From: Oscillospiraceae bacterium
GTDB lineage: Bacteria > Bacillota > Clostridia > Oscillospirales > Ruminococcaceae
NCBI GenBank assembly: GCA_021201235.1
Contig: JAJQFI010000006.1
Location: 1 to 50,800, forward strand
Reading direction: 5' to 3'
Length of the DNA stretch: 50,800 bases
The notes beneath the pieces were generated by a model, which did not search any database, had not been told where the DNA came from, and saw nothing but the letters and a program-made list of their open reading frames with translations. This document shows positions 27,979 through 50,326 of the stretch, in pieces (within the stretch, counting starts at the first letter, position 1; the number at the start of each line of letters is the position of its first letter). Made by a program: the position numbers and the translations under genes.

Positions 27979-28007
27979 AGTATAACAGATTGTAAGGCGA
28001 AAGTCAA
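27979..28007 (-). promoter_or_regulatory. Promoter of the pyr-pur gene run
   Basis: Minus-strand TTGACT (28002-28007), a 17-base spacer and TATACT (27979-27984) with an extended TG. The -35 overlaps the stop codon of the preceding gene. No further strong promoter is apparent before the arg operon. Confidence 0.8.
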
Positions 28008-28930
28008 GCCTTGATAATTTTATACAGAACCGCTTCCGCAAACACAAGCGGGCGATTATATCTGAAGAACACGATGCCATCCGAAGGGGCGGTGATGCGT
28101 TCGACGACGTTGCCCTCGAGCGGGTCAAGGATTTCGCAGAGGAGTTGTCCCCTCTCGAAGGAGTCACCCGTTTCCACATAGGGGCGATATATTCCCGCCT
28201 TGGTCGAGTGGAGCTGAATGAGCTCCGATTCGGAGATAATCTCGGTCAGGCTTCCGCCGGGGATTTTCTGAGTGGTGATGCCGTTCTTGTTAGCAAATCT
28301 GAGAACAGCGTCAATCGCAATCTTCGCCGACGGCAGGTCAATCTGGTCTGTGGCGTTTGTGTAGAGTGAGAAAGCCTTGGTCTCCCAAATCTGCCAGTTG
28401 TAGTTAAGCGTCGTGGTGTCGTAGGGTCTCGGAGTACGGATGAAAGCATAAGGCAGTCCGAAATCGGTCATATAGCCGTGGTCGGTAAACCCGGTCTCCA
28501 TCAGCTTGACGTGCGACAGGAAGTCGCCCTGCTGATAGAAGCTTGCAAACTGGATGCCGAATTTATACCCTTGGATTTCCTCGAAGAGCCCGTCGGCGAT
28601 TCTCTGGGTGGTTTCGCCCATATCGTAGCCGGGGAACATGCGGTTGATGTCGGTGTTGTCCATCGTCCAGAACCGCTTGCCGATGTTCATCGAATAGTAG
28701 TTGACGCACGGGATGATTAAAATCTCGTGGTTCGGGGCGATTTTGCCCTCTTTTTCGAGGCGCTTGAACTTCTGAACAAGCTGAGATGCGACATACATCT
28801 GCTGAACCTCATTGCCTCGCATAGAGCCTACGATGCAGAGTGCCTTTTCGCCGCCGCCGAAGCGGTAGCCGATGATGTCCATCGGTTCACGATAGGGGGA
28901 TGTTATCGAATAGATGGTCTCTTTACGCAT
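28004..28930 (-). CDS. Aspartoacylase/AstE-family protein with lost catalytic residues (pseudoenzyme)
   Basis: Start at 28930 (MRKETIYSITSPYREPMDII) follows GGGAGG and overlaps the upstream gene by 8 bases. The 308-residue protein has the fold-wide landmarks of the M14-like succinylglutamate desuccinylase/aspartoacylase family (IVGSMRGNE near 33-41, DINRMFPGYD near 94-103) and the same C-terminal beta domain as its neighbour. Compared with that neighbour, the zinc His of HGxE is Arg38, the second zinc His is replaced (Ala129 in IQFAS), and the catalytic Glu in VEMG is replaced (Tyr190). Glu41 alone remains. It is unlikely to hold zinc or hydrolyse, and may bind the same ligand or pair with the active copy. 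It ends the five-gene operon. Confidence 0.75.
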   Translation of the reverse strand: MRKETIYSITSPYREPMDIIGYRFGGGEKALCIVGSMRGNEVQQMYVASQLVQKFKRLEKEGKIAPNHEILIIPCVNYYSMNIGKRFWTMDNTDINRMFPGYDMGETTQRIADGLFEEIQGYKFGIQFASFYQQGDFLSHVKLMETGFTDHGYMTDFGLPYAFIRTPRPYDTTTLNYNWQIWETKAFSLYTNATDQIDLPSAKIAIDAVLRFANKNGITTQKIPGGSLTEIISESELIQLHSTKAGIYRPYVETGDSFERGQLLCEILDPLEGNVVERITAPSDGIVFFRYNRPLVFAEAVLYKIIKA

Positions 28931-29867
28931 TGTGAACACCTCCCAGAATTCTTGCAATAAGCGAGCCGCCGTAGACGACGGGATATTCACGAAGCGTGAA
29001 GATTCGCCCGTCGCAGGGAGATGTGACGTATTCCTCGACATGCCCGGTTGTCGGGTCGAGAACGTCGCCGATATGGTCGCCTTTCTTTATATCTACCCAG
29101 TGCTCGACGCAGGGGACGAAGATTCCGGCGGCGGAGGAGTTGACGAACGAAACCTCGTGGTCGGTCGAAAGGATGGGCTTGCGGACCGGCTCGGTCTCGC
29201 CTGTCCAGATGCCGATGCTCCCCAGTAAATTCAGGATTCCCGCAACAAGCTGGTCACAGTATTCTTTTGTAATCCTCATGCCGACACCCATCTCGACGAC
29301 GAGGGTTTTCGTGCCGATTGAGTTTAAGCTGTAGGCAAGCGTCGATTCAAGAACGGTCGCCGAGCTGTGAACCCAGATAAAGTCGGTCCCGAGCATTTCG
29401 GCATACGGGACTAATTCATCAGCCGTAATCTCATTAATACGCACCTGCGGTATCTCTCTTAAGTAAATATTACTTGCGTGGATGTCGATGCAGATGTCGG
29501 CGCCCTTGATGTCGTTCACGATGTCATAAGCGATATGCTCCGCCATGGTGCCGTCGGGGGTGCCGGGGAAGATTCTGTTCATATCAAGGTCAAACATCGG
29601 CATGCCCCTCTGAATGGAGTCGACGCCGAGGGGGTTCAGCGCCGGATAAATGTCGACGATGCCCTCAAGATTTGATGCGCCTTTTGTCAATATGTCCGCA
29701 AGTCTGGCGCAGACAAGCTGACCCTCCAGCTCGTCGCCGTGGGTTCCCGTGACAATACAAGCACGCTTCTTTCTTTTCGTGGAGCGTGCCATATTCGAAA
29801 TTCGGTTTTTGCGGATAACGAGGTTTTCATTAACCGCAAGCGAAGCTTGGGCGATGGTTTCTATCAT
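28923..29867 (-). CDS. Aspartoacylase/succinylglutamate desuccinylase-family metallohydrolase
   Basis: The 314-residue protein shows an intact zinc site of the AstE/AspA family: TGTHGDELEGQ with His43 and Glu46, IDIHASNIYL with His130, substrate-arginine region DLDMNRIFPGTPDGTMAEH (about 94-112) and catalytic Glu192 in LVVEMGVG. Family members remove an acyl group from an N-acyl amino acid or trim amide bonds. The substrate cannot be read. The C-terminal 100 residues form a small beta domain (FVPCVEHWVDIKKGDHIGDV). AAGGG precedes the ATG. It follows the transglutaminase gene by 15 bases and overlaps its inactive paralogue. Confidence 0.85.
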   Translation of the reverse strand: MIETIAQASLAVNENLVIRKNRISNMARSTKRKKRACIVTGTHGDELEGQLVCARLADILTKGASNLEGIVDIYPALNPLGVDSIQRGMPMFDLDMNRIFPGTPDGTMAEHIAYDIVNDIKGADICIDIHASNIYLREIPQVRINEITADELVPYAEMLGTDFIWVHSSATVLESTLAYSLNSIGTKTLVVEMGVGMRITKEYCDQLVAGILNLLGSIGIWTGETEPVRKPILSTDHEVSFVNSSAAGIFVPCVEHWVDIKKGDHIGDVLDPTTGHVEEYVTSPCDGRIFTLREYPVVYGGSLIARILGGVHNA

Positions 29868-29882
29868 AGGTTGTTTTCCCTT

Positions 29883-30656
29883 CTACTGTACAATTTGTGA
29901 TTTCACCGTCTGTGTCGACTCAGTTATCCCCACATAGCACCCCGATTCAATCGGGCAGTCGGCGTAGTCCCTGCCGTGGCAGAGCTTGAGGTAGTGGGTG
30001 CTGATGAGGCAGTTGTTGACGGGGTCGAGCCCGTACCAGCGGGAGCCGTCGTTCACCTCGACCCATGCGTGGGTTTCGCCCTCGTCGCAGGCAAGCCCGG
30101 CGACATATCTGTAGGGGATTCCGCCCATGCGGCAGAGCGCAAGCATGATGTGGGCATAGTCCTGGCAGACGCCCTTGCCGAGAGTTAAGGCTTCTTCTGC
30201 CGTTGTATGCACATCGGTGACGCCCTTCTCATAAGTCATGTATTCATAAAGGCTGTCGGCGAGCGAAAGAGCCCTGTACAGCACGTTCGATTCGGTCGGC
30301 TGATGCGCTTCGTAAAACGCCGTAAGAGCCTCGCCGGGATGCGTCAGAGGCGACTGATAGGCATACATGACCGGAGCCTTGCCGGAAACGGTATAGCTCG
30401 AGGTGATGGACGCCGTGCCTTTTACCGAGAATGAGAATTTATCATGCGGCTTTTCGATTCTGCCGCAGAGGAGCGAGTTGCCGAAGCTGTCGCGCGAGTT
30501 CCAGATAACCCCTCCGACAGGCTGAATAGTGTATTTCGGCTCGCTGATAATCTGCCGGTCGTCCGAAAACGGCAGGCAACGGAGCGTGAAGCAGTGGGAG
30601 CTTATCGGGCTTGCGAAATCAAACTCGGTGCTGTATTCAAATGTCAGCTTCTTCAT
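29883..30656 (-). CDS. Transglutaminase-like cysteine peptidase/amidase
   Basis: The 257-residue protein has an N-terminal beta domain (residues 1 to about 90) like that of bacterial transglutaminase-like proteins, and a papain-fold core. The triad is visible: Cys164 in GKGVCQDYAH, His196 in GETHAWVEV and Asp211 in YGLDPVNN. There is no signal peptide, so it acts in the cytoplasm. Such proteins usually cut or form isopeptide or amide bonds. It overlaps the alpha-E gene by 20 bases, with GAGGTG before its ATG. Homologues accompany alpha-E and circularly permuted ATP-grasp proteins in other bacteria, supporting a joint peptide pathway. Confidence 0.88.
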   Translation of the reverse strand: MKKLTFEYSTEFDFASPISSHCFTLRCLPFSDDRQIISEPKYTIQPVGGVIWNSRDSFGNSLLCGRIEKPHDKFSFSVKGTASITSSYTVSGKAPVMYAYQSPLTHPGEALTAFYEAHQPTESNVLYRALSLADSLYEYMTYEKGVTDVHTTAEEALTLGKGVCQDYAHIMLALCRMGGIPYRYVAGLACDEGETHAWVEVNDGSRWYGLDPVNNCLISTHYLKLCHGRDYADCPIESGCYVGITESTQTVKSQIVQ

Positions 30657-31350
30657 CAGTTTTCACCTCAACAAGTCTCGAAATGAGCGACAGTGCCTCG
30701 AGCCGACAGCTCTCGATTCCCTTTCCACGGGTCAACAGCTTCTCAAGGCTCTCGTATGCCTCAACGTTCAGAACGTGGTTATAGACGTTTTCATAGGGAT
30801 GCACGAGCCCCGTGAGATAATTAAATACTCTCCGTATATCTTCGTCCTTATATGACAATCTGACAAACAAATCGAGACGCTCGACCGCCTTGCCGATATA
30901 AATCAGATCCCGCCCCTCAAGGTCCCCCATATTGTCCTCGGCGCTTTCCCAGAAGGCGTATAAATCGTCTCTTACGGGGAGAAGGTCATAGCGCACTTTG
31001 CGGGTGCCTCTTACGGATTTGAACTTGTTCAGCGCAAGCTGTAAGTATGAAAGCGAAGAAGACTTAATAGCCTCACGGAGAACGATTCCGTTGTCCATAG
31101 CCCGCTCAAGATTCGAGCGGAGGGAGTTTGGGTCGGTCTTGTCGAAAAGATACCTGTCGAAAAAGTCGCTGTCGTCTGTGTAGATGTTCGGCGCACCGAT
31201 TTTTTCAAGATAGTTCTTGTATGATTCCTTATCGACATCTATCATCAGGTCGAAATAATTGAAGAACGAATTAAGGGTCGTGAAGACACGCTCGGTGTAT
31301 CTTCCGAGCCAATATAAATTGGAACCGTTTAATCTTGTGATAGTACCCAT
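30637..31350 (-). CDS. Alpha-E domain protein (DUF403), short form
   Basis: The start block MGTITRLNGSNLYWLGRYTE with the invariant Glu-Arg, followed by SNLERAMDNGIVLREAIKS and the helical remainder, matches the alpha-E family. This is an all-helical domain that co-occurs with circularly permuted ATP-grasp ligases. At 237 residues it is shorter than the usual length of about 310. Its biochemical role is not known; a docking or catalytic part in peptide synthesis has been proposed for the family. GGAGGAGG, which also encodes the terminal Gly-Gly-Gly motif of the upstream ligase, is the ribosome site; the reading frames overlap by 22 bases. Confidence 0.85.
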   Translation of the reverse strand: MGTITRLNGSNLYWLGRYTERVFTTLNSFFNYFDLMIDVDKESYKNYLEKIGAPNIYTDDSDFFDRYLFDKTDPNSLRSNLERAMDNGIVLREAIKSSSLSYLQLALNKFKSVRGTRKVRYDLLPVRDDLYAFWESAEDNMGDLEGRDLIYIGKAVERLDLFVRLSYKDEDIRRVFNYLTGLVHPYENVYNHVLNVEAYESLEKLLTRGKGIESCRLEALSLISRLVEVKTDEEADI

Positions 31351-32657
31351 GTGTCTTTAAAGCCTCCTCCTTGAGATGAATTTACGACGAACGAATCGGG
31401 ATTTCGTGAGAACCTCGTCAAGCCGCTCGTCCAGACCTTGGTGGTCTCGCCCGAAAGCACGAAAGCACGCAAGTCGGCTTTACGGGGAACCGTCGTGCCG
31501 TCGTCGCTTAAGATGTCGAGGTCGATGAAGTCGATTACTTCCTGAGCTATGAAGCGCCTTGACTGCTCGGTGATAAGCGTCCGCCAGTTGCTGAGCTGTT
31601 CCTTGGTCATGTCCCGACCGAAGACTGCTCCGTAGCCACCGGCTTCTGAGACATCTTTGACAACCAAAGTCTCAAGATGGTCGAGGACATACTTTCTGTC
31701 CTCCTCGTAATAGGGCAAATAGGTCGGGGCGTTCTTCAAAATCGGCTCTTCGCCGAGGTAATATTTAATCATCTTCGGGACGAAGTAATAGATGCCCTTG
31801 TCGTCCGCAACGCCGTTGCCGGGTGCGTTCATGATGGCGACGTTTCCGGCTCTGTAGGCGTCCATGATGTGCGGCACACCGATTAAGGATTCGAGCACGA
31901 AGGTCATCGGGTCGAGGTATTCATCCGAAATTCTTCTGTAGACCGTGCCGACACGGGTTCTGCCGCCCTGATAGTCGCGCATGTATAGAATATTGTTCTC
32001 GACAAAGAGGTCGCTGTTCTGAACGAGCACCGCGCCGGTTCTCTCCGCCAGATAGGAATGCTCGAAATAAGCGGCGTTATAGTGCCCAGGGGTCAGAATA
32101 ACGTTGATGCCGCCGCAGTTGACGCTGTCCATCGTGTCCTTCAGGAGCGAGGCGTAATTTCTGTTATCGACTACGGACACATCGTGGAAGACATCCGGGC
32201 TGGTCATGCGGCAGAGCTTCCTTGCGATAAGCGGGTAGGAAGCGCCCGAAGGAATACGCAAATTGTCCTCAAGAATATACCAAGTGCCATCTTTGGCTTG
32301 CACCAGATCAATGCCGGAAATATGGCTGTAGACACCGTGGGCGGGAGTCACTCCCTCGCACTGCGGCAGATAGCCCTTTGATATGTAGACAAAGTCTGCG
32401 GGGATTACTCCGTCCTTAATAATCTTCTTCTCGGAGTAGATATCCTTCAAAAACAAATTCAGAGCGTCGACACGTTGGATAAGTCCCTTCTCCATATCTG
32501 CGAAGTCGGACTTAGTGATGATTCTGGGGATGGCGTCGAACGGGAAGAGCTGTTCCTTGAAGACGCCGTTTTTATAGATTCCGAACTTGACGCCATACCG
32601 GGCAAGAAGCTCGTTTATCTCACGGGTGTTGGCAACGGGTGTGTTCATAGCATTCAT
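31329..32657 (-). CDS. Circularly permuted ATP-grasp type 2 ligase
   Basis: Predicted ATP-dependent carboxylate-amine ligase. The start at 32657 (MNAMNTPVANTREINELLAR) is a choice; ATG at 32648 has a slightly better GAG site, and a longer frame to 32729 would read through the leader hairpin. The protein of about 442 residues contains GIDLVQAKDGTWYILEDNLR, RIPSGASYPLIARKLC and the family C-terminal SSQGGGFKDTWVLS, the hallmarks of CP_ATPgrasp_2 (PF14403). Members are thought to make peptides or amides; no substrate is known. It heads the operon ligase, alpha-E, transglutaminase, active and inactive aspartoacylase-like proteins. Confidence 0.88.
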   Translation of the reverse strand: MNAMNTPVANTREINELLARYGVKFGIYKNGVFKEQLFPFDAIPRIITKSDFADMEKGLIQRVDALNLFLKDIYSEKKIIKDGVIPADFVYISKGYLPQCEGVTPAHGVYSHISGIDLVQAKDGTWYILEDNLRIPSGASYPLIARKLCRMTSPDVFHDVSVVDNRNYASLLKDTMDSVNCGGINVILTPGHYNAAYFEHSYLAERTGAVLVQNSDLFVENNILYMRDYQGGRTRVGTVYRRISDEYLDPMTFVLESLIGVPHIMDAYRAGNVAIMNAPGNGVADDKGIYYFVPKMIKYYLGEEPILKNAPTYLPYYEEDRKYVLDHLETLVVKDVSEAGGYGAVFGRDMTKEQLSNWRTLITEQSRRFIAQEVIDFIDLDILSDDGTTVPRKADLRAFVLSGETTKVWTSGLTRFSRNPDSFVVNSSQGGGFKDTWVLSQD

Positions 32658-32675
32658 CTCAATTCTAAAAAATGC

Positions 32676-32704
32676 AAAAAGACGCCCAAGAAACCTTGGA
32701 CGCC
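32676..32704 (-). terminator. Terminator-like hairpin in the leader of the ATP-grasp operon
   Basis: Minus-strand GGCGTCCAAGG, loop TTT, CTTGGGCGTC, then TTTTT GC and TTTTTT. It lies after the dehydratase-activase gene and could end that transcript. A good promoter just upstream (32720-32748) also places it in the 5' leader of the ATP-grasp mRNA, so it may act as an attenuator. Confidence 0.75.
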
Positions 32705-32719
32705 TTTGCCACTGTATTA

Positions 32720-32748
32720 AGAATAACACACTAAAGCTAAAATTTCAA
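32720..32748 (-). promoter_or_regulatory. Promoter of the ATP-grasp/alpha-E/transglutaminase operon
   Basis: Minus-strand TTGAAA (32743-32748), 17-base spacer, TATTCT (32720-32725) with an extended TG. The start would be near 32713, immediately before the hairpin at 32676-32704. Confidence 0.65.
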
Positions 32749-41244: not shown

Positions 41245-42870
41245 CTACAGCAGGAACTCCGACGTCATCCTTAAAACCGCTTGGATAATCAATCTCAGGG
41301 GCTCGTCCAGATATTGAGAGGCAAGAACGGAAGTCTCTTCGCCGCAGGTCAGGCATGCTGTGACAACCGTGGCGGTTCTGTAGTTATCAGCTCCGACTAA
41401 GACAGGCACACTGCCGGAATATGTGTGTCCGAGAGCCTCCGTCTCGCTGTCAATGTAGCTGTCGCCGCAGACTGAACAGGTATGAACGGTATATCCGCCC
41501 TCGGTGCAGGTCGGTTCTGTTACGGTTTCCTCATAGTTGTGACCGGTAGCTTCCGTTTCGCTGTCGGTATAGGTGTCGCCGCAGTTGGAGCATACATGGG
41601 TTGTGTACCCACCCTCGGTGCAGGTTGGTTCTGTTACAATCTCTTCATAGCTATGACCGGTCGCTTCTATAACAGTATCGCTGAGCAAAATTTCGGTCGT
41701 GGCGTCCTCGTCGCTGAAATAGGTGTCACAGCCAGAGCAGTACCAATAGTCGATGTTGCCCTTCGTTGTGCATGTGGCGCTTTTTGCCTTGGTTTTGGTC
41801 AAAGTATGAGTGTGCACCTCCTCGACTGTCTCCTCGGTAGTCTTGTTGGAGGTCTCGAGAGTCAGATAGCTTGACGGGTACAGCGACAATGTCACGCTGT
41901 CGTAGGTATAGGTGACGGTTTTTGATTTGGTAACGAAAGTATAGCCGGAGGAATCGCTCGAGTCGGCATCGCTTGCGCAAACCATGAAGAGCCCTCCGTT
42001 CTGACCGACAGTGCCGGCGTCGCTGTTGGTGACATCAACAAGATAGTTGACGCCGTCGAGGCAGACAATATTCCACATGTGAGTCCCGTCGCCGGTGCCT
42101 CCTGTCACTGTGCCGCTGACCGTGATGCAGTCGATGCCCGCAAGGTCGCAGAGATACTTGAACGCCTTTGAATAGCCCTCGCAGACGACATTAGTCGAGG
42201 TGTCCTGATCGAAGACATAGACGAGCTGCCAGATGTCGCCATAGTCTGCGTCCGAATGGTCGCTGTCATATGAGACCAGGGAGCAGATGGTGTCCTTAAA
42301 CGCTGTGAGCTTTTCCTCGTCGGAGCAGCTCGCATATTTCTTTACGATCGACTGTGCATATTTTGCGGCTGTCTGCGCCGCGGAAATCTTCGTCGAGTCG
42401 ACGGTGGTGGACGAACCTCCCGACTGATAATCGGTCGCTACCGGCAATGTCACCGTAATCGTGGCAATCAGCTCCGTGTCCCAACCGGAAAACTCCTCTT
42501 CCGCATATGCTTCAGCTCTCTTATCAATCCAGTAAAACTCGTAAGGACAATCATAGATAAGATAACTGATAATCAGATTTAAGTCGAGCGTTTCCGCAAA
42601 AGCATTTGCCGCATTTTCCATGGTTCTGTCATCGATAATCCGGGCTACGCCCAGAGAAGTTGTGTCACAGCTGACCTCTATTGTGACAACCGTCGACGAT
42701 ACCGTGCCGTCGGCAATATTTTTTATCGCCGCCTTCAGCTTCCGGTATGCCTCGAGATTGACGCCGCTCAGCGCGTCCTCACCGTTGTAGCTTGCGGACA
42801 GAGGCACCGGCATGAGCTGAACCGCCATTACAACTGCAATAATTAAAGATAAGATTTTCCTTGATTTCAT
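41245..42870 (-). CDS. Secreted transglutaminase-like surface protein with Cys-pair repeats
   Basis: Start at 42870 (MKSRKILSLIIAVVMAVQLM, a signal peptide) follows AGGAAGAAAG; a longer frame would read through a leader terminator. The 541-residue protein has a transglutaminase-like core with Cys230 in NVVCEGYSKAF, His264 in GTHMWNI and Asp279 in YLVDVTNS. The C-terminal region (about 372-520) has three or four repeats of the type CTEGGYTTHVCSNCGDTYTD followed by SETEATGH, each with paired Cys that could bind metal. No sorting motif is visible. The last 20 residues look atypical; another frame there continues further, so a small frameshift is possible. It probably acts on the cell wall or secreted proteins. 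Confidence 0.82.
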   Translation of the reverse strand: MKSRKILSLIIAVVMAVQLMPVPLSASYNGEDALSGVNLEAYRKLKAAIKNIADGTVSSTVVTIEVSCDTTSLGVARIIDDRTMENAANAFAETLDLNLIISYLIYDCPYEFYWIDKRAEAYAEEEFSGWDTELIATITVTLPVATDYQSGGSSTTVDSTKISAAQTAAKYAQSIVKKYASCSDEEKLTAFKDTICSLVSYDSDHSDADYGDIWQLVYVFDQDTSTNVVCEGYSKAFKYLCDLAGIDCITVSGTVTGGTGDGTHMWNIVCLDGVNYLVDVTNSDAGTVGQNGGLFMVCASDADSSDSSGYTFVTKSKTVTYTYDSVTLSLYPSSYLTLETSNKTTEETVEEVHTHTLTKTKAKSATCTTKGNIDYWYCSGCDTYFSDEDATTEILLSDTVIEATGHSYEEIVTEPTCTEGGYTTHVCSNCGDTYTDSETEATGHNYEETVTEPTCTEGGYTVHTCSVCGDSYIDSETEALGHTYSGSVPVLVGADNYRTATVVTACLTCGEETSVLASQYLDEPLRLIIQAVLRMTSEFLL

Positions 42871-42890
42871 AGTCTTTCTTCCTGAATTTT

Positions 42891-42929
42891 CGCAAAACAA
42901 AAATCTCTTCCGGCGAACCGAAAGAGATT
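42891..42929 (-). terminator. Terminator in the leader of the secreted transglutaminase gene
   Basis: Minus-strand AATCTCTTTCGG, tetraloop TTCG, CCGGAAGAGATT, then TTTGTTTTG. It is a 12-bp intrinsic terminator located between this gene's own promoter and its start codon, about 20 bases before the ATG, so it is likely an attenuator. Confidence 0.8.
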
Positions 42930-42976
42930 CCAAGATAAACACACAAATCCATCCGGTCCCCCTGCTGTATGCTAAA

Positions 42977-43090: not shown

Positions 43091-44401
43091 TTACCTTCTC
43101 TTCGAAGCCGTCGCCGCAAGTGCGGCAATCACCATCGGGAGAACGGAAAGTGCCAGTCCGGTTATCGGGTTGCTTTCCGGCTCGGAGGGCTCCGAGGGCG
43201 CCTCGTCATCCTCCGTTTCGGTGTTTGTATCCTCTTCCGGCTCGTCAAGAGTGTCTTCAGGGATATGAGTGTTGGTCACTGTATACGACCAGTCACCGGT
43301 GCTTCTTATGAATGAAGAGTATCCGTCGGGAACGTCAACCTCAACAACGGTATAGCTGTATGCAAGGCTTCCGTTGCGGACAGGGAGATTTGTGAAGCTC
43401 GCCGTCCAGTTGTTGGTCTCGGAAAGGGTGACCGTCCTGCCGGTTGCCACTCCGTTCTGATAGAGCGCAACGGTTACGCTTGAAGGTCTCAATCCGTCAG
43501 CATCGTCCTCGTCAACCCAGATCTTTCTGACTATCAGATTCGTATAGGTCTGCCTCGGTCCTTCGCTCGGGGTGTGGGTGTTCGTAACGGTGAACCCGCT
43601 CGAAGCGTCGCCCGAAATTTCCGCTGTGTATCCGCTCGGCACGGTCTGCTCTTCAACGGTGTATACAATCTCCGTTCCACTCGAGTACTTCGCAAGTCCC
43701 GTCCACTCGTATGTCCAGCTGTTGCTCTCGCTGAGTTCGGCTGTCCCGACCTCGGCGCCGTCCGCAAGAAGCGTTATGGTGACGCTGTCGGGGCGGATGT
43801 TGTCCTTGTCGCTTGAGTCATCCCAGACCTTGGTCACGCTTACGCTTGTCGTCTCCGGCGTGTGGGTGTTAGTGATGGTGATGACTCCGGTGTTTGCGTC
43901 GGTCGAGCAGGTCGCCGTGTAGCCGTCGGGGACCGTTGTCTCCTCAACAGTGTATATTATTTCAATCTCGGCGTTACTGCTCGCATCGTAATAGTACTTC
44001 GGAAGGCTGTTCCATGTGTAGCCTGTGGTCTCGGCTGAGAGGGTCCGGGTGTCGGTATAGACGGTAGCTCCTGCGGCTGTGCCGGTGATTGTCACCGCAT
44101 ACTCTGCGCGCTTTCCGTCCTGATTGCCGTTGTCGTTCCAGTACTTGACGGCGGTGACGCTTGTCGTTTCAAGGGTGTTGATTACGTTGTAGCCGCTGAC
44201 AGTTGCAGTATAGCCGGTTACATCTTCTTTCTCGATAGTATATTCGATTAAGTTACCGTCCTTATACTTATCAAGATTGTCAAAGCTGTATGCCCAGTTA
44301 TCGCTTGCCGAAACGGTCACGCTGTCAATCTTTGTGCCGCCTGCCAGAAGGTTGATGGTTATCGATGCGGGGCGGGTATCATACTGATTATTGCTGTCTC
44401 G
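43091..44401 (-). pseudogene. C-terminal part of the Cna_B adhesin, beyond an in-frame TGA
   Basis: Directly continues the frame of the adhesin gene after the TGA at 44402-44404, so no frameshift is involved. It encodes the rest of Cna_B repeat 9 and repeats 10-12 (for example TTSVTAVKYWNDNGNQDGKR, TTSVSVTKVWDDSSDKDNIR). An acidic linker and the cell-wall anchor follow: NPITG (43157-43171), a hydrophobic segment LALSVLPMVIAALAA and basic KRR. NPxTG resembles the (N/S/P)PxTG motifs used by some clostridial sortases. An internal ATG at 44320 lacks a clear ribosome site. Without readthrough this part is not made and the adhesin would be secreted unanchored. Confidence 0.85.
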
Positions 44402-47400
44402 TCAGCTCTTTCTGCCGCTTACCGAGGTTGTCTCGGGAATGTGGGTGTTTGTGATGTCATAGCCCTGATATGTTGCGGTGTAGCCACTGACAGCCATTTC
44501 CTCAACTGTGTACTGGATAAGAGTGCCGTTTTCATACTTCGGGAACTCGCCGAAGCTGTAGCTCCAGTCGCCGTTCACATCCGGGGCAACGGTCACCGTG
44601 TCGATAACCGTGCCGCCCTTAAGAAGGTTGACGGTTATCTCGGTCGGGCGGATGCCGTCCTGATTGTTTGCGTCGTCCCACGTCTTGGTGCCGCTGATTT
44701 CAACAGTTGCGGGAGTGTGGGTATTGGTGACGGTCAAGCCCAAATAGGAGGTCGTGTAACCTGCAATAGCGGTTATCTCCTTGACCGAATAGGTTATCTT
44801 TTTTCCGCCGGAATAAACGGGCAGATTATCAAAGGTATACGTCCAGCTGTCGGCGGTGGAGTCTCCGGTCAAGCCGACCTCTCTGTAAACGCTTCCATTC
44901 GCAAGAAGCTGGATTACAACTCTTGTCGGGCGGATGCCGTCCTGATTGTTCGCATCATTCCAGACCTTGGTGACGGTTACTTCTGTGTCTTCCACAGTGT
45001 GGGAGTTGGTGATTACAATCTCGGTGTCAGCACTGCCTGTAATTTCAGGGGTGTATCCTGACGGGATTCCGGTCTCTTCAACCGTGTAGACTATATCCTT
45101 GCCGTTTTCGGTCTTGGGAAGATTAGTCCATGTATAGGTTCTGTCGGTCTTGGAAAGAGTCACGGAATCGACTTTTTCAGTGACACCGTCGACAGTCTTG
45201 TACAGTGTTATTTCGTAGTCGGCACGCAAACCATCCTGGTCTCCGCCGTCCACCCAGTACTTGACCACTGTAACGCTTGTGTAATCGGGTGCATAGGTGT
45301 TGGTTACCGTGAACTCATAGGTCGAGTTCTGGACGACAGCCTTGACATAGTTATCGGGAACAGTCGTCTCGTCAACGAGATAGGTTATGAGATAGCCGCC
45401 GCTGTACTTGTCAAGATTTGTCCATGTGTAGGTGTAGTTATTATCGACAGAGGTTATCGTCTGTGAATCGGTATAAACGGTGACGCCGTTTGCAACGCCC
45501 GTGAGAGTCACAACATATGAATCTCGCTCGGTCTCATAGCCGGTGTCGTCCCAGACCTTGGTCACGCTTACCTCTGTAACCTCGGGTGTATGGGTGTTGG
45601 TGATGACATAGCCGCTCGAAGCGTTGCCGGTGATAACGCATGTATAGCCGTCAACGGTGATTTCCTTGATGGTGTATTCAATCAGCTTGCCGCTTTCATA
45701 CTTTGGAAGACCGGTGATTGTCTTCTCCCAGCTGTTGCCGATGTTAAGGCTGATGGTGTCGTAATACGAACCGTTCGCATAAAGCTCAACCTCGACATAG
45801 AGCGGTCGCTTGCCGTCCTGATCGTTATTGTCCTCCCATACCTTCTTTACGGTAATCTCGGTTTCCTCGGGAGTATGGGTGTTGATGATATTGTAGCCGC
45901 TGTAGGTCGTTGTATAATCCGCAACGGCTTCTTCCTCAACGGTGTAGGTTATCAGGTTGCCGTCCTTGTACTTGTCAAGACCTGTGAAGCTGTAGGTCCA
46001 GTTGCCACCGGAACCCGGAGTCACGGTCAGGGTGTCGACAACGGTGGTGCCGTCAGCGATGAGGTTGACTGTAATCGAGCTCGGGCGGATGCCGTCCTGG
46101 TCGCTTGCGTCGTTCCATGTCTTCGTGCCGCTGATGTCGACGGTTTCGGGAGTGTGGGTGTTGGTGATGACGGCGGTGTAAACTCCGTTGCCGGTCTGAA
46201 CCCACGAGGAAACCTTCCAGCTATAGCCGGTCACGTCGGTTTCAACAAGGGTGTATACATTCGCCTTGCCCGAGGTGTAAAGCGGCAGGTCTTCAAATGA
46301 GCCCGACCAGCTGTTGGATTCGCTCAGGATTACCGATTTGCCGGTGGTGGCGCCGTTGCAGTAAAGGGTGATGGTGACAGTTCCGGGGCGGATGCCGTCC
46401 TGATTATTCGCGTCGTCCCAGACCTTACTGAACTCGAAGCTGATGGTTTCGGGCGTATGGGTGTTGGTGATGGTGAAAACGGTCTCGTCAGTGTTCGATT
46501 CCGACTTGGAGGTGTAGCCTGTAACCGCTGTTTCAACCACTTCGTACTCAATAAGCTTGCCGTTTTCGTACTTGGGAAGACCCGAGAAGGTTTCCGTCCA
46601 GCCGCCTGCGGCTGTAAGCGTCAGAGTATTGGCAGTCGGCTGACCTCCCTTATAGAGGGTGACCACAACGCTTGTCGGGCGGATTCCGTCCTGATTTTCG
46701 TTGTCGTCCCAGACCTTGTTGACGGTTATCTCGGTTGTTTCAAGCCTGTTTGTGAAGCTTGCCGAGACGGTCTTGTCCTGGGTGATGGTGCCTGTATTGC
46801 CGCTGTAGGAAACGAGGGTATAGCCCGAAAGGGTTGCCTCAGTCACTGTATAGCTTGCGTTTGCGGGAAGACCCGAGATGGTTATCGTCTCGTCGTCCTT
46901 TAAGGTCACGGTTGCAACGCCGCTCGAGTTGAAATCGACGCTGGTAACTGACGAGCCCTTTATCGCAGTATAGCTGTTGTCGGCGGCAGAAGCCATCGTT
47001 ATGGTGAAGGTGAACTCCGTCGTGTCGCTGTCGACGTTTGAAACGGTCTTGCTTATCGCAAGGCTTCCCGCGGCGGCTTCGTTGGAAATGTAAACCGTCT
47101 TGCTTCCGTTATAGGGGTATGCGGCGAATTCGGTATAACCATAAGCCGAAATGGCGCTCACATAGGTATCATATCCCGTGTCGTCCCTGATGATGAAGTA
47201 GTACTTGGTCTCATCAAGCTTGTAGCCTTCGGGAGCATATGTCTCCACATAATAGTAGAGGGTGTTCGTGAAGAGTGCAGAGGTGCCGTCGTCCTTCTTG
47301 CCAAAGGTCAGCGAGCCGCTTGTATCGGTCTCTTCTGTTGCGGAATATGACCAGGTGTTTGTGCTGAGGTCATAGACGTACAAATCGAAGGTTGCTCCGG

Positions 47401-50326
47401 GAACAGCGTGGCTCACGTCGTTTGCATCAATCTTGTTTATCGTCAGGCTTCCGTTGTGTCCGGTTGCATAGGCTTCGGGAACCTCAATCTCAATATCGGT
47501 CGAGGTGCTGTCCGAGGTGGAATCCTTGCCGCTCAGTGTTGCAACGTTCTGTACCGACACAGTCTCGCCGTCGTTTCCGGTGACGTAGACCTTATAGGTG
47601 ACAATCATCGCGAGCTCGTCGGGAACTGTGAGGGAGATGGTCGAGGTTCCGTCCTGATTGAGAGTATAGGACGAGGTGAACCCGATGGCATTGCCGCTCA
47701 TATCGACCACGGTGATGCTGTCAAGGATGAACGAGGCGTTTGCGCTCAGGGTGTCCGAAAGCACAACCATGTCGCCCGATACAAGGTCATCAGCCGTCTG
47801 GTTGACATAGATGCTGTATTCGAGCTGATTTACGCCGCCGGATGCAACTGCGGCATGCTTGCTAAGGATGATTTCGTCGACCTCAACAGTCGCTTTGTCG
47901 TCGCCGTAGATTTCGGTTCCATCGCCCCACTGGGCGCTGTTGGTGAACGATACCTTGCCGTCGCCGTCGTCATCAACCATGTTGGTGATCTTGGTCTGAT
48001 AGGTGATGGTGATATGCGACCAACCGTAGGATGAATCCGGATCGGACAGGTCGTCAATAGTGAATGTAAGAACATTGCCGCTTATGGAAGGAGTGATGCT
48101 CTTATTGCTGAAGAGCATGTCGTTGTAACCGGTAATGGTATAGGTAGCCGAGCCGTCAACATAGCTCATGCCGTCGGGCAGGGTGTCGGTTACATAGTAG
48201 GTCTTCCCTGCCAGGTTTGCATTCGGGTTGCCCCACTCATTTTTGTTGAGCACTATCGTCCATGTAGCAACGTTTTCGTTGACGGTACCGGTCTTGTTGA
48301 TAAGCTCGGCAATGGTAACGGACGAGCTGTCGCCCTCGTTATAGGAGCTGCCCTCAATCTCGTACTCAGAGGCTACGGTATTGGTGGCATAGATATACTC
48401 GCTTCCGTTCTGATACTGATACGTTACGTCATAGGTGATATAAACGATTTCGGTCAGAGTGATTGCAAAGTCAATCGTGAAGCCGCGATTGTCGTTGCTC
48501 CATGTGACCGAATAATCGGTGCCGGCGACATAGGTCTTGCCCGAGGCGCCGGTTACTTTAAGCGAGCTCTGGACATAGGCGCCGCTGTAGCTGTCGGTGA
48601 GCATATCGTTGAGAATCATGTCGTCAACGCCGGAGTACTGTGTCGGGTCGATTGTGATTGTGAAGCTTGCGGTCGGGGTTCCCAACGCTTTGCCGGTTCC
48701 CGATTTGCTCACGATGTCGGGACTAAGCGTCGGCGTCGATGTGGGATAATAGGTGGCTTCGCCGGTGTCGGTGTTGCCGTCGTCGTCGGTGATGCTGTTG
48801 GTATACTTGGTTGTAGTGTCGGGAACATCGTCCGCCGCTACTGTCGTGTAGTAGATTATTCTGTAGGCTTCGCCCTTGTCGGTGCTGTCGTCATAGGTGT
48901 CCTTGCCATAGGTGAAGCTGTCCGGGAAGGTATAGACAAGCTGTCCGCTCGAATTGACATGGCTCGAAACGGAGCCCGTGTAGACATCCGGCCAGTAGCC
49001 TCTTGAAACGGTTATGTCACCGGTAAAGGTCTGCCCTGCGGCGGGAGTGTCGGTAACGGTAACTCCGAATACTGTCGAGAACTGGTCGGGAGTGACCCAG
49101 ACTGTCCAGACTATGAGGAGCGATCCGTCGTCCAGCTTGCTGACGTTTCCGGACTTTGAAAGCTGGGACTTCTGGAAGGTAACGGTTGTCGTTTCATCAA
49201 TACCGCCGCTTCCGCCGTTCCACGACCAGGTCGCGTTGTTTGTTGTGTCGGACAGATTGTCGGTGTCGACGACATTGACGGTATAGATAATGGTGTGATT
49301 TCCTATCGCCAGAGTTCCGAGGCTTCCGGTCGCAACACTGCCATTGACCGAGAAGCTGTTTGAAACGTCGGTGCCGTCAAGATAGAACGAGCCGGTGAAC
49401 TGAAGATTGCTTCCGAGAGTGTCGGTCAGAACGAAGTTCTCCGCCGCCGTTCCGGTTATACTGAGATTGATGGTGAATGTGATGGTGCCGTCGTCATTTA
49501 TGACATAGCTCTTGGAGCCGTCTACTTCGCCGTCTTCAAGCTTGATGGTTATCTCGGTAACACCCTCAAACTGGATAACAACCTCGGTCTGTCCGTCCGT
49601 AGCGGAGGAATCAAGAGCCGCACTGAAGGCAAAGGTTCCCGTTATGTCGCTGTTCGTGGCAAGCCATGTCGTGTCAAAAATCAGATAGACGACGCCGTTC
49701 TGTATAACGTAGGAGCCGATTTCACTTCCGTCCCTGCTGTTATACAGCTTGTGGGTTCCCTCCTGAATTTCGCCGAGAACAGAATCGGGCAGTTCATAGT
49801 AGACGGTATTCTGGTTTACGGTCGGATCATAGCCATCATGGAAATCATAGGAAAATGTAAATGTATAAACGGTATCGCGTTCATAAGCCGTGTTTGGGTC
49901 AACGACCTGACCGTTTACAGTAACCTGCAGGGTGATATTTGCGGAGCCGGTCAGATTAACCGGTATTCCGACTATACCGGAAATATTGCTGTAATCGTCA
50001 GCAGATACCGCAAGAAGTGAATTTGTGAGAAGAGCTGTATTCTCTTCTGCTATCGTGTTATCATCTGTTAATTCATTGCTGTTTGTGAGCGAATTATCGT
50101 CTGTGGATATGCCGGCATCTGCCGTTGTGCTGTCATCTGTTGATGTGTCTGCTTCTGTTGTTCCGTTATCGGAATAGGTTTCGTTGCTGTCGGCTTCATC
50201 CTCCACAGATGAAGAAACAATTACAGACGAAAAAGAATCATCACCGATAATGGTCGTCGGGATGGTTCCTATGCACATCGTAATTGCCAACAGCAGGCAT
50301 GCTGTCTTTTTCAGTAGTTTGTTCAT
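44402..50326 (-). CDS. Large Cna_B-repeat surface adhesin, interrupted by a premature TGA
   Basis: The first 1,974 of about 2,410 codons. A signal peptide (KKTACLLLAITMCIGTIPTT) and an acidic Ser/Thr region (to about 110) are followed by a series of collagen-adhesin or Ig-like domains (about 115-950), then a SpaA-like domain near 955-1070 (LTINKIDANDVSHAVPGATF, APEGYKLDE). A pilin-type domain (about 1082-1190) and Cna_B repeats from about 1195 come next, each starting K-x-W-x-D (TVNKVWDDNENQDGIRP) and ending TITNTHTPE. Lys, Glu/Asp and Asn positions fit self-formed isopeptide bonds. In repeat 9 the Trp codon of K-x-W is TGA (GRKS-stop), ending the frame. GGAGG lies upstream of the ATG, and a strong promoter with a structured leader of about 250 bases precedes it. 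Confidence 0.88.
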   Translation of the reverse strand: MNKLLKKTACLLLAITMCIGTIPTTIIGDDSFSSVIVSSSVEDEADSNETYSDNGTTEADTSTDDSTTADAGISTDDNSLTNSNELTDDNTIAEENTALLTNSLLAVSADDYSNISGIVGIPVNLTGSANITLQVTVNGQVVDPNTAYERDTVYTFTFSYDFHDGYDPTVNQNTVYYELPDSVLGEIQEGTHKLYNSRDGSEIGSYVIQNGVVYLIFDTTWLATNSDITGTFAFSAALDSSATDGQTEVVIQFEGVTEITIKLEDGEVDGSKSYVINDDGTITFTINLSITGTAAENFVLTDTLGSNLQFTGSFYLDGTDVSNSFSVNGSVATGSLGTLAIGNHTIIYTVNVVDTDNLSDTTNNATWSWNGGSGGIDETTTVTFQKSQLSKSGNVSKLDDGSLLIVWTVWVTPDQFSTVFGVTVTDTPAAGQTFTGDITVSRGYWPDVYTGSVSSHVNSSGQLVYTFPDSFTYGKDTYDDSTDKGEAYRIIYYTTVAADDVPDTTTKYTNSITDDDGNTDTGEATYYPTSTPTLSPDIVSKSGTGKALGTPTASFTITIDPTQYSGVDDMILNDMLTDSYSGAYVQSSLKVTGASGKTYVAGTDYSVTWSNDNRGFTIDFAITLTEIVYITYDVTYQYQNGSEYIYATNTVASEYEIEGSSYNEGDSSSVTIAELINKTGTVNENVATWTIVLNKNEWGNPNANLAGKTYYVTDTLPDGMSYVDGSATYTITGYNDMLFSNKSITPSISGNVLTFTIDDLSDPDSSYGWSHITITYQTKITNMVDDDGDGKVSFTNSAQWGDGTEIYGDDKATVEVDEIILSKHAAVASGGVNQLEYSIYVNQTADDLVSGDMVVLSDTLSANASFILDSITVVDMSGNAIGFTSSYTLNQDGTSTISLTVPDELAMIVTYKVYVTGNDGETVSVQNVATLSGKDSTSDSTSTDIEIEVPEAYATGHNGSLTINKIDANDVSHAVPGATFDLYVYDLSTNTWSYSATEETDTSGSLTFGKKDDGTSALFTNTLYYYVETYAPEGYKLDETKYYFIIRDDTGYDTYVSAISAYGYTEFAAYPYNGSKTVYISNEAAAGSLAISKTVSNVDSDTTEFTFTITMASAADNSYTAIKGSSVTSVDFNSSGVATVTLKDDETITISGLPANASYTVTEATLSGYTLVSYSGNTGTITQDKTVSASFTNRLETTEITVNKVWDDNENQDGIRPTSVVVTLYKGGQPTANTLTLTAAGGWTETFSGLPKYENGKLIEYEVVETAVTGYTSKSESNTDETVFTITNTHTPETISFEFSKVWDDANNQDGIRPGTVTITLYCNGATTGKSVILSESNSWSGSFEDLPLYTSGKANVYTLVETDVTGYSWKVSSWVQTGNGVYTAVITNTHTPETVDISGTKTWNDASDQDGIRPSSITVNLIADGTTVVDTLTVTPGSGGNWTYSFTGLDKYKDGNLITYTVEEEAVADYTTTYSGYNIINTHTPEETEITVKKVWEDNNDQDGKRPLYVEVELYANGSYYDTISLNIGNSWEKTITGLPKYESGKLIEYTIKEITVDGYTCVITGNASSGYVITNTHTPEVTEVSVTKVWDDTGYETERDSYVVTLTGVANGVTVYTDSQTITSVDNNYTYTWTNLDKYSGGYLITYLVDETTVPDNYVKAVVQNSTYEFTVTNTYAPDYTSVTVVKYWVDGGDQDGLRADYEITLYKTVDGVTEKVDSVTLSKTDRTYTWTNLPKTENGKDIVYTVEETGIPSGYTPEITGSADTEIVITNSHTVEDTEVTVTKVWNDANNQDGIRPTRVVIQLLANGSVYREVGLTGDSTADSWTYTFDNLPVYSGGKKITYSVKEITAIAGYTTSYLGLTVTNTHTPATVEISGTKTWDDANNQDGIRPTEITVNLLKGGTVIDTVTVAPDVNGDWSYSFGEFPKYENGTLIQYTVEEMAVSGYTATYQGYDITNTHIPETTSVSGRKS

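Follow-up and report, generated by a model that had tools for sequence, protein, structure and literature searches.

Introduction

Bacterial ATP-grasp, Alpha-E and transglutaminase-like proteins are encoded together in the Anbu operon, a cluster of four genes in conserved order, the fourth being Anbu itself (PMC6376114). In Yersinia bercovieri, the ATP-grasp protein of this operon frees phosphate from ATP, and neither peptidase activity nor stable partners were detected for Anbu (PMC6376114). In Burkholderia cenocepacia the Anbu-type genes depend on NtrC (PMC5491218), and in Pseudomonas putida they are higher on nitrate than on ammonium (PMC8050072). No established function for this system was found in the literature consulted. 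I describe a related five-gene cluster in a 50,800-nucleotide stretch (hereafter the window) of an Oscillospiraceae bacterium (GenBank assembly GCA_021201235.1, contig JAJQFI010000006.1, positions 1 to 50,800), in which the same three families are followed by two M14-like proteins of the AstE/AspA type, AstE1 and AstE2. The best reading of this cluster is as the clostridial equivalent of the Anbu operon, likewise controlled by nitrogen, in which an M14 enzyme and its pseudoenzyme partner replace Anbu. What looks new is an ATP-grasp/Alpha-E/transglutaminase system without Anbu and with this pair, under an apparent single-hexaloop ANTAR attenuator; the literature searches showed no paper connecting these genes with ANTAR or AstE-like pairs.

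The ANTAR systems are the second point of comparison. Ramesh et al. (2012, PMC3369931) describe a word, AGCAANGRRGCUY, that eut terminators carry at their 5' base and that folds into a hexaloop with A1 and G4. The minimal ANTAR site has since been redefined as a single hexaloop, with both hexaloops needed for eut antitermination (PMC8934654).

Gene content and conservation of the cluster

The five genes abut one another on the minus strand. The first encodes a circularly permuted ATP-grasp ligase of type 2 (31329..32657, 442 amino acids; CP_ATPgrasp_2, PF14403, E 4.6e-138; 3n6x, E 3.7e-118), followed by a short-form Alpha-E protein (30637..31350, 237 amino acids; PF04168, E 4.6e-17, model positions 7-164 of 294), a transglutaminase-like cysteine enzyme (29883..30656, 257 amino acids; Transglut_core 2.6e-20, Bact_transglu_N 2.4e-11), AstE1 (28923..29867, 314 amino acids; AstE_AspA_cat 4.4e-24) and AstE2 (28004..28930, 308 amino acids; AstE_AspA_cat 8.4e-10). 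By these coordinates, three of the four junctions are overlaps (22, 20 and 8 bases), and the remaining one is a 15-base gap. None of the five proteins reaches a curated NCBIfam family above cut-off.

Named species genomes hold at least 584 AstE2 relatives, and the best 80 of these (54-100% identity) define all counts given below as out of 80; at such identities, the set is biased to relatives of the window. The full order of ATP-grasp, Alpha-E, transglutaminase, AstE1 and AstE2 is kept in 61 of the 80 loci, so the arrangement is not due to chance, and in two more the first three genes (the trio) are divergent from the AstE pair. At least one trio gene is found in 70 of the 80, and of the ten loci lacking any, L065, L091, L102 and L114 start at or near the edge of the record (L and G numbers denote loci and genomes). 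Ruminococcus flavefaciens FD-1, Ruminococcus sp. YE71 and Faecalicatena contorta are among the named species in which the cluster is complete. A reading of the window from its sequence alone (hereafter the sequence-only reading) had proposed a five-gene operon of these gene identities behind one promoter and a leader hairpin. The profile matches bear out the identities; the coordinates, the scans described below and the conserved order bear out the operon. The neighbourhood extends beyond its own genome, and in the best 80 AstE2 loci the AstE-like genes do not lie mostly outside such clusters.

The cluster is widespread in gut Clostridia. I surveyed 295 genomes of the order and 291 of the class, with G000, G031 and G067 positive in both samples. 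In the order sample, Alpha-E is present in 15 genomes, and the AstE2 profile matches 28 at E <=1e-3, 22 of them strongly (E below 1e-50, a threshold of my own) and the other six by fragmentary or weak matches. The 22 include every one of the 15 genomes with Alpha-E (p 3e-20 if the genomes are taken as independent, which in fact they are not). The class sample gives Alpha-E in seven genomes and AstE2 in 14 at E <=1e-3, ten of them strong, and again all seven Alpha-E genomes are among those ten. In G204, trio and pair share a contig but are ∼24 kb apart. The distribution is patchy, with both Alpha-E and AstE2 missing from two genomes sampled within the window's own genus.

Among the 15 order-sample genomes with Alpha-E, none has a proteasome/Anbu family member (PF00227) above the cut-off; six have sub-threshold matches at E <=1 (best 5.9e-4). 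Since AstE2 is present in all 15, the AstE pair occupies the place of Anbu, in line with the earlier suggestion that it takes the protease position.

A further partner gene common to all loci was sought among open reading frames of at least 100 amino acids, and this idea was rejected, as recurrent families appear in subsets of the 80 loci only: ABC-transporter-like (18, at scattered positions), FUSC-family (15), peptidase C26-like (10), RelA/SpoT-like (9) and citrate synthase (6). Except for FUSC, these names were read by eye. Separately, in G288 (L027 6108-7783, L213) an asparagine-synthetase-like gene is divergent from the operon, with a common promoter region.

An AstE-type hydrolase and its zinc-less paralogue

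AstE1 has the family profile, fold, zinc ligands and catalytic Glu of an AstE/AspA hydrolase, and residues H43, E46, H130, E192, N97 and R98 are kept in 18/18 aligned homologues. AstE2 retains the profile and the fold, together with E41, N96 and R97 in the aligned homologues. Its first zinc His is replaced by Arg in 18/18 homologues, and the position aligned with the catalytic Glu is occupied by Tyr (17) or Phe (1). For all the residues named here, the roles are presumed to be those of the AstE/aspartoacylase family. With the profile and fold kept and these two residues gone, AstE2 is a pseudoenzyme of the AstE/AspA family, and the description of the pair as one active and one inactive member stands.

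In the transglutaminase-like enzyme, alignment shows that the C164, H196 and D211 triad is conserved. The short Alpha-E had been taken for a lineage-specific version; this did not hold, as all 62 aligned proteins (the window's included, incomplete ones excluded) are 222-239 amino acids long.

A leader attenuator resembling an ANTAR element

Three features precede the ATP-grasp gene, all on the minus strand. A promoter scan identified a sigma-70-type promoter, TTGAAA-17-TATTCT (32720..32748), and in most relatives a promoter-like site likewise lies close 5' of the hairpin. An intrinsic-terminator hairpin of 13 pairs (32678..32707), acting as a putative attenuator, was found by terminator scan, alignment, covariation and folding. 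Overlapping its 5' arm is an ANTAR-type hexaloop mini-hairpin, ggc-AAAGGC-gtc (32699..32710), identified by comparison with the published word (PMC3369931). Such scans also pick up chance sites: they return seven promoter-like sites with 3.9 expected, and seven terminator-like sites with 5.0 expected.

The 35-nucleotide stretch with the terminator hairpin folds at -18.4 kcal/mol (z -5.2), and none of 200 shuffles is as stable. Rfam gives nothing at gathering threshold for the leader, the best sub-threshold match being a small RNA family (E 0.013, half the gathering score), and for the whole window only a tRNA at its edge. From the loci, 78 operon leaders were extracted, 71 of which have a terminator-like hairpin by my own filter. 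The other seven are L022, L053, L099, L105, L118, L129 and L138, and in L099 a covariance model still finds the hairpin. Removing eight different-looking hairpins and exact repeats from the 71 left 57, of which 44 were aligned, and the pair counts rest on this selected set. In the alignment 98.2% of cells are paired, and both the 45 compensatory cells and the covariation score exceed 500/500 shuffles; five pairs have changed on both sides, a number reached by 12 of the 500. In L110 (4097-4229) and L117 (915-1047), and by eye in L107, L123 and L140, two complete attenuator hairpins stand in series 5' of the ATP-grasp gene.

The 5' arm of the terminator in the operon leaders holds the word AGCAANGGCGCUY. 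Within one mismatch of the eut word are 38 of the 78 leaders (0.4 expected), and within two mismatches 47 (5.2 expected); none fits it fully because position 9 is C. A hexaloop with A1 and G4 and at least three base pairs is found in 65 of 71 leaders, the window's among them. Its stem covaries (the window has ggc/guc, while other leaders have agc/gcu, gac/guc or aac/guu): it is 87.5% paired with 11 both-side changes, and exceeds all shuffles on three measures, though not on two that count pairs or pair types. More distant operon leaders also carry the element, in G424 (by script) and G594 (by eye). Taken together, the window leader looks like a single-hexaloop ANTAR element.

No second, upstream hexaloop hairpin, as in known ANTAR attenuators, was found in the operon leaders. 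The hexaloop stem follows the -10 box at a median spacing of 14 nucleotides (quartiles 9 and 18); for several leaders, that of the window included, the script chose a promoter too far upstream, which makes the real spacing shorter. With the end of the window's -10 box at 32720 and the start of the stem at 32710, an upstream hairpin with its linker cannot fit. In L123 and L140 it is the first complete attenuator that lies between the -10 box and the hexaloop.

An alternative is that the leader is an ordinary or otherwise regulated attenuator, its likeness to the ANTAR word being incidental to a G+C-rich terminator arm. The single hexaloop would fit this, as would the operon leaders without the element, the instability of the window mini-hairpin in folding, alone or beside the terminator (as expected also if a protein must hold it), and the covariation of its stem, which is not independent because it shares columns with the terminator. 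Such a coincidence would, however, not account for the conserved A1/G4 hexaloop and the conserved unpaired AGCAA outside the terminator stem, for the half of the leaders at one mismatch or less, for an element 5' of the ANTAR gene's own operon, or for the ANTAR protein found in 21 of 23 genomes. I therefore regard it as unlikely, and retain the ANTAR-type element in what follows.

The element at other nitrogen genes

In the window's own genome, a single ANTAR match was found (C28, E 1.5e-13), located in a GOGAT-glnA operon. The degenerate word RGCAANGRCGYY occurs 41 times in this genome, and three of the occurrences overlap a terminator, with 0.63 expected from random positions (184/12,000 pass the filter; the backward-word control, with four cases, is too small). 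The three sites are the window operon, a glutamine synthetase III (GSIII) gene with an amtB-PII fusion and what reads as an asparagine synthetase gene behind it, and an operon of GOGAT-type genes, glnA, the ANTAR response regulator and pyrG (by eye). A promoter lies directly 5' of each.

In relatives, the search covered 12 whole genomes and the 80 loci, the latter being operon neighbourhoods and not a random sample; the target genes were mostly named from their translations, a few with family matches. The element is found 5' of AmtB, GSIII, citrate synthase and glutamine-dependent NAD synthetase genes, and also of peptidase C26-like, FUSC-family and hydantoinase-like genes and transporters. 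The covariance model of the leader (R1) has further matches without clear meaning, at pyruvate:ferredoxin oxidoreductase, lactate dehydrogenase and small or unassigned genes.

amtB was considered as a universal direct target and rejected, as R1 matches 7 of 23 amtB stretches at E <=1 (eight matches). Those truly in the amtB leader are in L247 and L257, and by eye the element is seen in L246, L247, L252, L257, L258 and L261; for at least L241, L243, L255, L260 and L263 the printed open reading frame gives no usable amtB start.

The strong part of the case is that the operon appears, from these leaders, to belong to a set controlled by one leader type and shared with ammonia-assimilation genes.

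Three side observations concern these targets. The FUSC-family gene recurs as a target in Ruminococcus-type loci (L074 150-204, L082 2736-2785, L093 2740-2793, L097 2607-2660, L101 2729-2778, L110 2656-2707; Pfam match for the L082 copy). Elements at L075 4813-4867 and L079 9683-9737 belong to a gene adjoining the cluster that reads by eye as peptidase C26-like, of the gamma-glutamyl hydrolase type, which may hint at gamma-glutamyl chemistry. Finally, L226 1501-1554 (own genome, C28:163038-163091) matches the leader model at E 0.0026 with no adjacent promoter; it precedes a gene read as pyruvate:ferredoxin oxidoreductase, and may be an ordinary terminator.

The AstE pair without the trio

The pair is not confined to the full cluster, as it occurs without an adjoining trio in six of the order sample's 22 strong AstE2 genomes, which all belong to one genus, and in two further genomes of the class sample. 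In these, Alpha-E is absent genome-wide, with the ATP-grasp and transglutaminase genes judged beside the pair only. G054 was first scored as lacking Alpha-E; its trio is present, with Alpha-E disrupted.

Among the 80 loci, the pair stands alone in L113, L126, L127, L130, L131 and L135. In L127 the leader element and a 22-residue ATP-grasp remnant precede it, in L113 a 26-residue ATP-grasp remnant with no visible leader, and in L130 a leader and a 66-76-residue Alpha-E remnant. An ANTAR-like leader lies directly 5' of the pair in L126, L131, L055 (by eye) and L343, with weaker candidates in L344 and L346. The trio thus appears to have been lost more than once, the pair having stayed, often with its switch. 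Since the pair was kept after such loss, sometimes with the leader, this suggests that it probably has a job of its own. Broken or part-deleted copies of the operon were also seen, in L053 (G319), L060 (G201) and L345 (G054), which fits repeated loss.

A proposed function

The mechanism that I propose is as follows. Transcription would start just 5' of the terminator, whose 5' arm could alternatively form the six-base-loop mini-hairpin. When nitrogen is short, the ANTAR protein of the GOGAT-glnA operon would hold the mini-hairpin, so that the terminator is not formed and the operon is read, together with GSIII, the ammonium transporter and GOGAT-GS. In partnership with Alpha-E, the ATP-grasp enzyme would spend ATP on forming an amide with an amine or amino acid, which the transglutaminase-like enzyme may transfer or trim. 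AstE1, probably paired with AstE2 (which retains the Asn-Arg), would hydrolyse an N-acyl amino acid or isopeptide, and free its amino nitrogen. M14/AstE-like isoaspartyl dipeptidases act in the cyanophycin nitrogen-reserve pathway (PMC10206079, PMC12661447), and would be a precedent for this step. The make-and-cleave module for an amide suggested by the sequence-only reading is plausible.

A different function, in which proteins or peptides gain a small group through the ligase and transglutaminase and lose it again through the AstE pair, would give the pair the de-tagging role proposed for Anbu. Tagging has been proposed for the Anbu operon (PMC6376114), with a peptide-synthesis system proposed instead in PMC5666114, and the conserved transglutaminase-like triad is compatible with it. 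No carrier or tag-peptide gene, however, recurs by the cluster among open reading frames of at least 100 amino acids (short peptides would escape), the fold matches of the AstE pair are small-molecule and dipeptide hydrolases, and the pair persists without the other genes. I consider tagging improbable.

The product could also be a secreted or signalling amide that is merely nitrogen-switched, with the AstE pair stripping a protecting acyl group. ATP-grasp ligases and acyl-removing hydrolases occur in natural-product pathways, and the patchy spread (15/295 genomes) is typical of accessory traits. Across families, however, no transporter or precursor gene is conserved beside the cluster, and the leader type is common to GS, GOGAT and AmtB, which points to core nitrogen metabolism. 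A natural product thus appears very doubtful.

Several observations weigh against a nitrogen-controlled, ANTAR-dependent operon. EutV needs both hexaloops in vivo (PMC3369931, PMC8934654), and the window leader fits one. The operon leaders of G008, G350, G543 and G618 have no clear element, nor is one visible at the standalone pairs L135, L056 and L347-L350. G288 and G543 carry the operon with no ANTAR match, although G288 has several elements (the G543 leader has none). Counted alone, the degenerate word shows no enrichment in the own genome (41 occurrences, 33 for the backward word), and three terminator overlaps with 0.63 expected is modest, the filter having been written after the GSIII and GOGAT leaders had been seen. 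R1 gives these two leaders E-values of 0.076 and 0.57 in 133 kb; it misses both at genome scale because their loops are longer, and of its three matches at E <=1 in the own genome, which include neither, two are not nitrogen leaders. The own-genome amtB follows GSIII with no element directly 5' of it, and just ∼6 of 23 surveyed amtB stretches have one.

On balance, the RNA switch that the cluster appears to share with ammonia-assimilation genes makes it probable that this system serves nitrogen shortage, by building and hydrolysing an amide compound. The explanation as a whole, a nitrogen-limitation operon of Clostridia in which an ANTAR-controlled leader governs amide ligase, transferase and hydrolase chemistry, is one that I hold to be somewhat probable. 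A more extended version is tentative, and I would sooner doubt it than rely on it: a complete nitrogen-switched amide cycle under an undescribed attenuator class. There, the trio would make an amide-linked nitrogen compound, either a small reserve of cyanophycin type or an adduct that captures amines, and the zinc hydrolase with its dedicated zinc-less sensor or scaffold paralogue would free the nitrogen. Promoter-proximal single-hexaloop ANTAR attenuators would also run GS, GOGAT and AmtB in gut Clostridia, and pair-only lineages would consume the compound that others make.

Other features of the window

The 5' neighbour of the operon, on the same strand, is a BadF/BcrAD-type activase gene (1462 residues); 3' of it are a dihydroorotase-type gene and genes read by eye as pyrimidine biosynthesis. 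Outside the operon, the gene at 41245-42942 encodes another protein in which a transglutaminase-like region is seen by eye, along with repeated units at the C-terminus. Minus-strand open reading frames at 44402-50326 and 43091-44320 encode a very long surface protein with Cna-B-like repeats (by eye), possibly a single gene (43091-50326) broken by a frameshift or by repeat assembly.

Comparison with known systems

An Anbu-less version of this system, tied to a nitrogen regulon in culturable bacteria, would combine a mechanism unlike NtrC with what appears to be the same signal. The leader switch offers a concrete route to the function of a long-puzzling operon, as the nitrogen link points to ammonia limitation as the condition to study, and to N-acyl amino acids and isopeptides as the compounds to assay with AstE1. 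The 2022 EutV-RNA structure paper (PMC8934654) raised the question of the role of single hexaloops in ANTAR function, to which these leaders are also relevant.

Among hydrolases, DoeB, Mlr6093 and CphZ (AstE/AspA type) match both AstE1 and AstE2 in fold over the whole chain, though identity to the best structures is just 15-23%, and the likeness to the CphZ cyanophycin-dipeptide hydrolases is one of fold alone. The cluster differs from all three in its zinc-less partner paralogue, and in the ATP-grasp ligase and Alpha-E gene context.

The ANTAR attenuators of the EutV, NasR and AmiR type share with the window leader an A1/G4 hexaloop that overlaps the terminator's 5' arm, all but one position of the 13-base word, and nitrogen-gene targets (PMC3369931). 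The window leader differs in having one hexaloop only, directly behind the promoter. For NitR of Clostridium acetobutylicum and Clo1313_2030 of C. thermocellum, the ANTAR gene lies in a GS-GOGAT cluster, as in the window's own genome (PMC4676874); the available excerpts of that paper do not mention an ATP-grasp/Alpha-E operon as a target.

The Anbu operon itself unites the ATP-grasp, Alpha-E and transglutaminase-like families in the order seen here, and is also nitrogen-responsive, in Pseudomonas and Burkholderia. In contrast, no Anbu exceeds the cut-off in the 15 Alpha-E genomes, two M14-like genes standing in its stead, and sigma-54/NtrC control would be replaced by control through a leader RNA.

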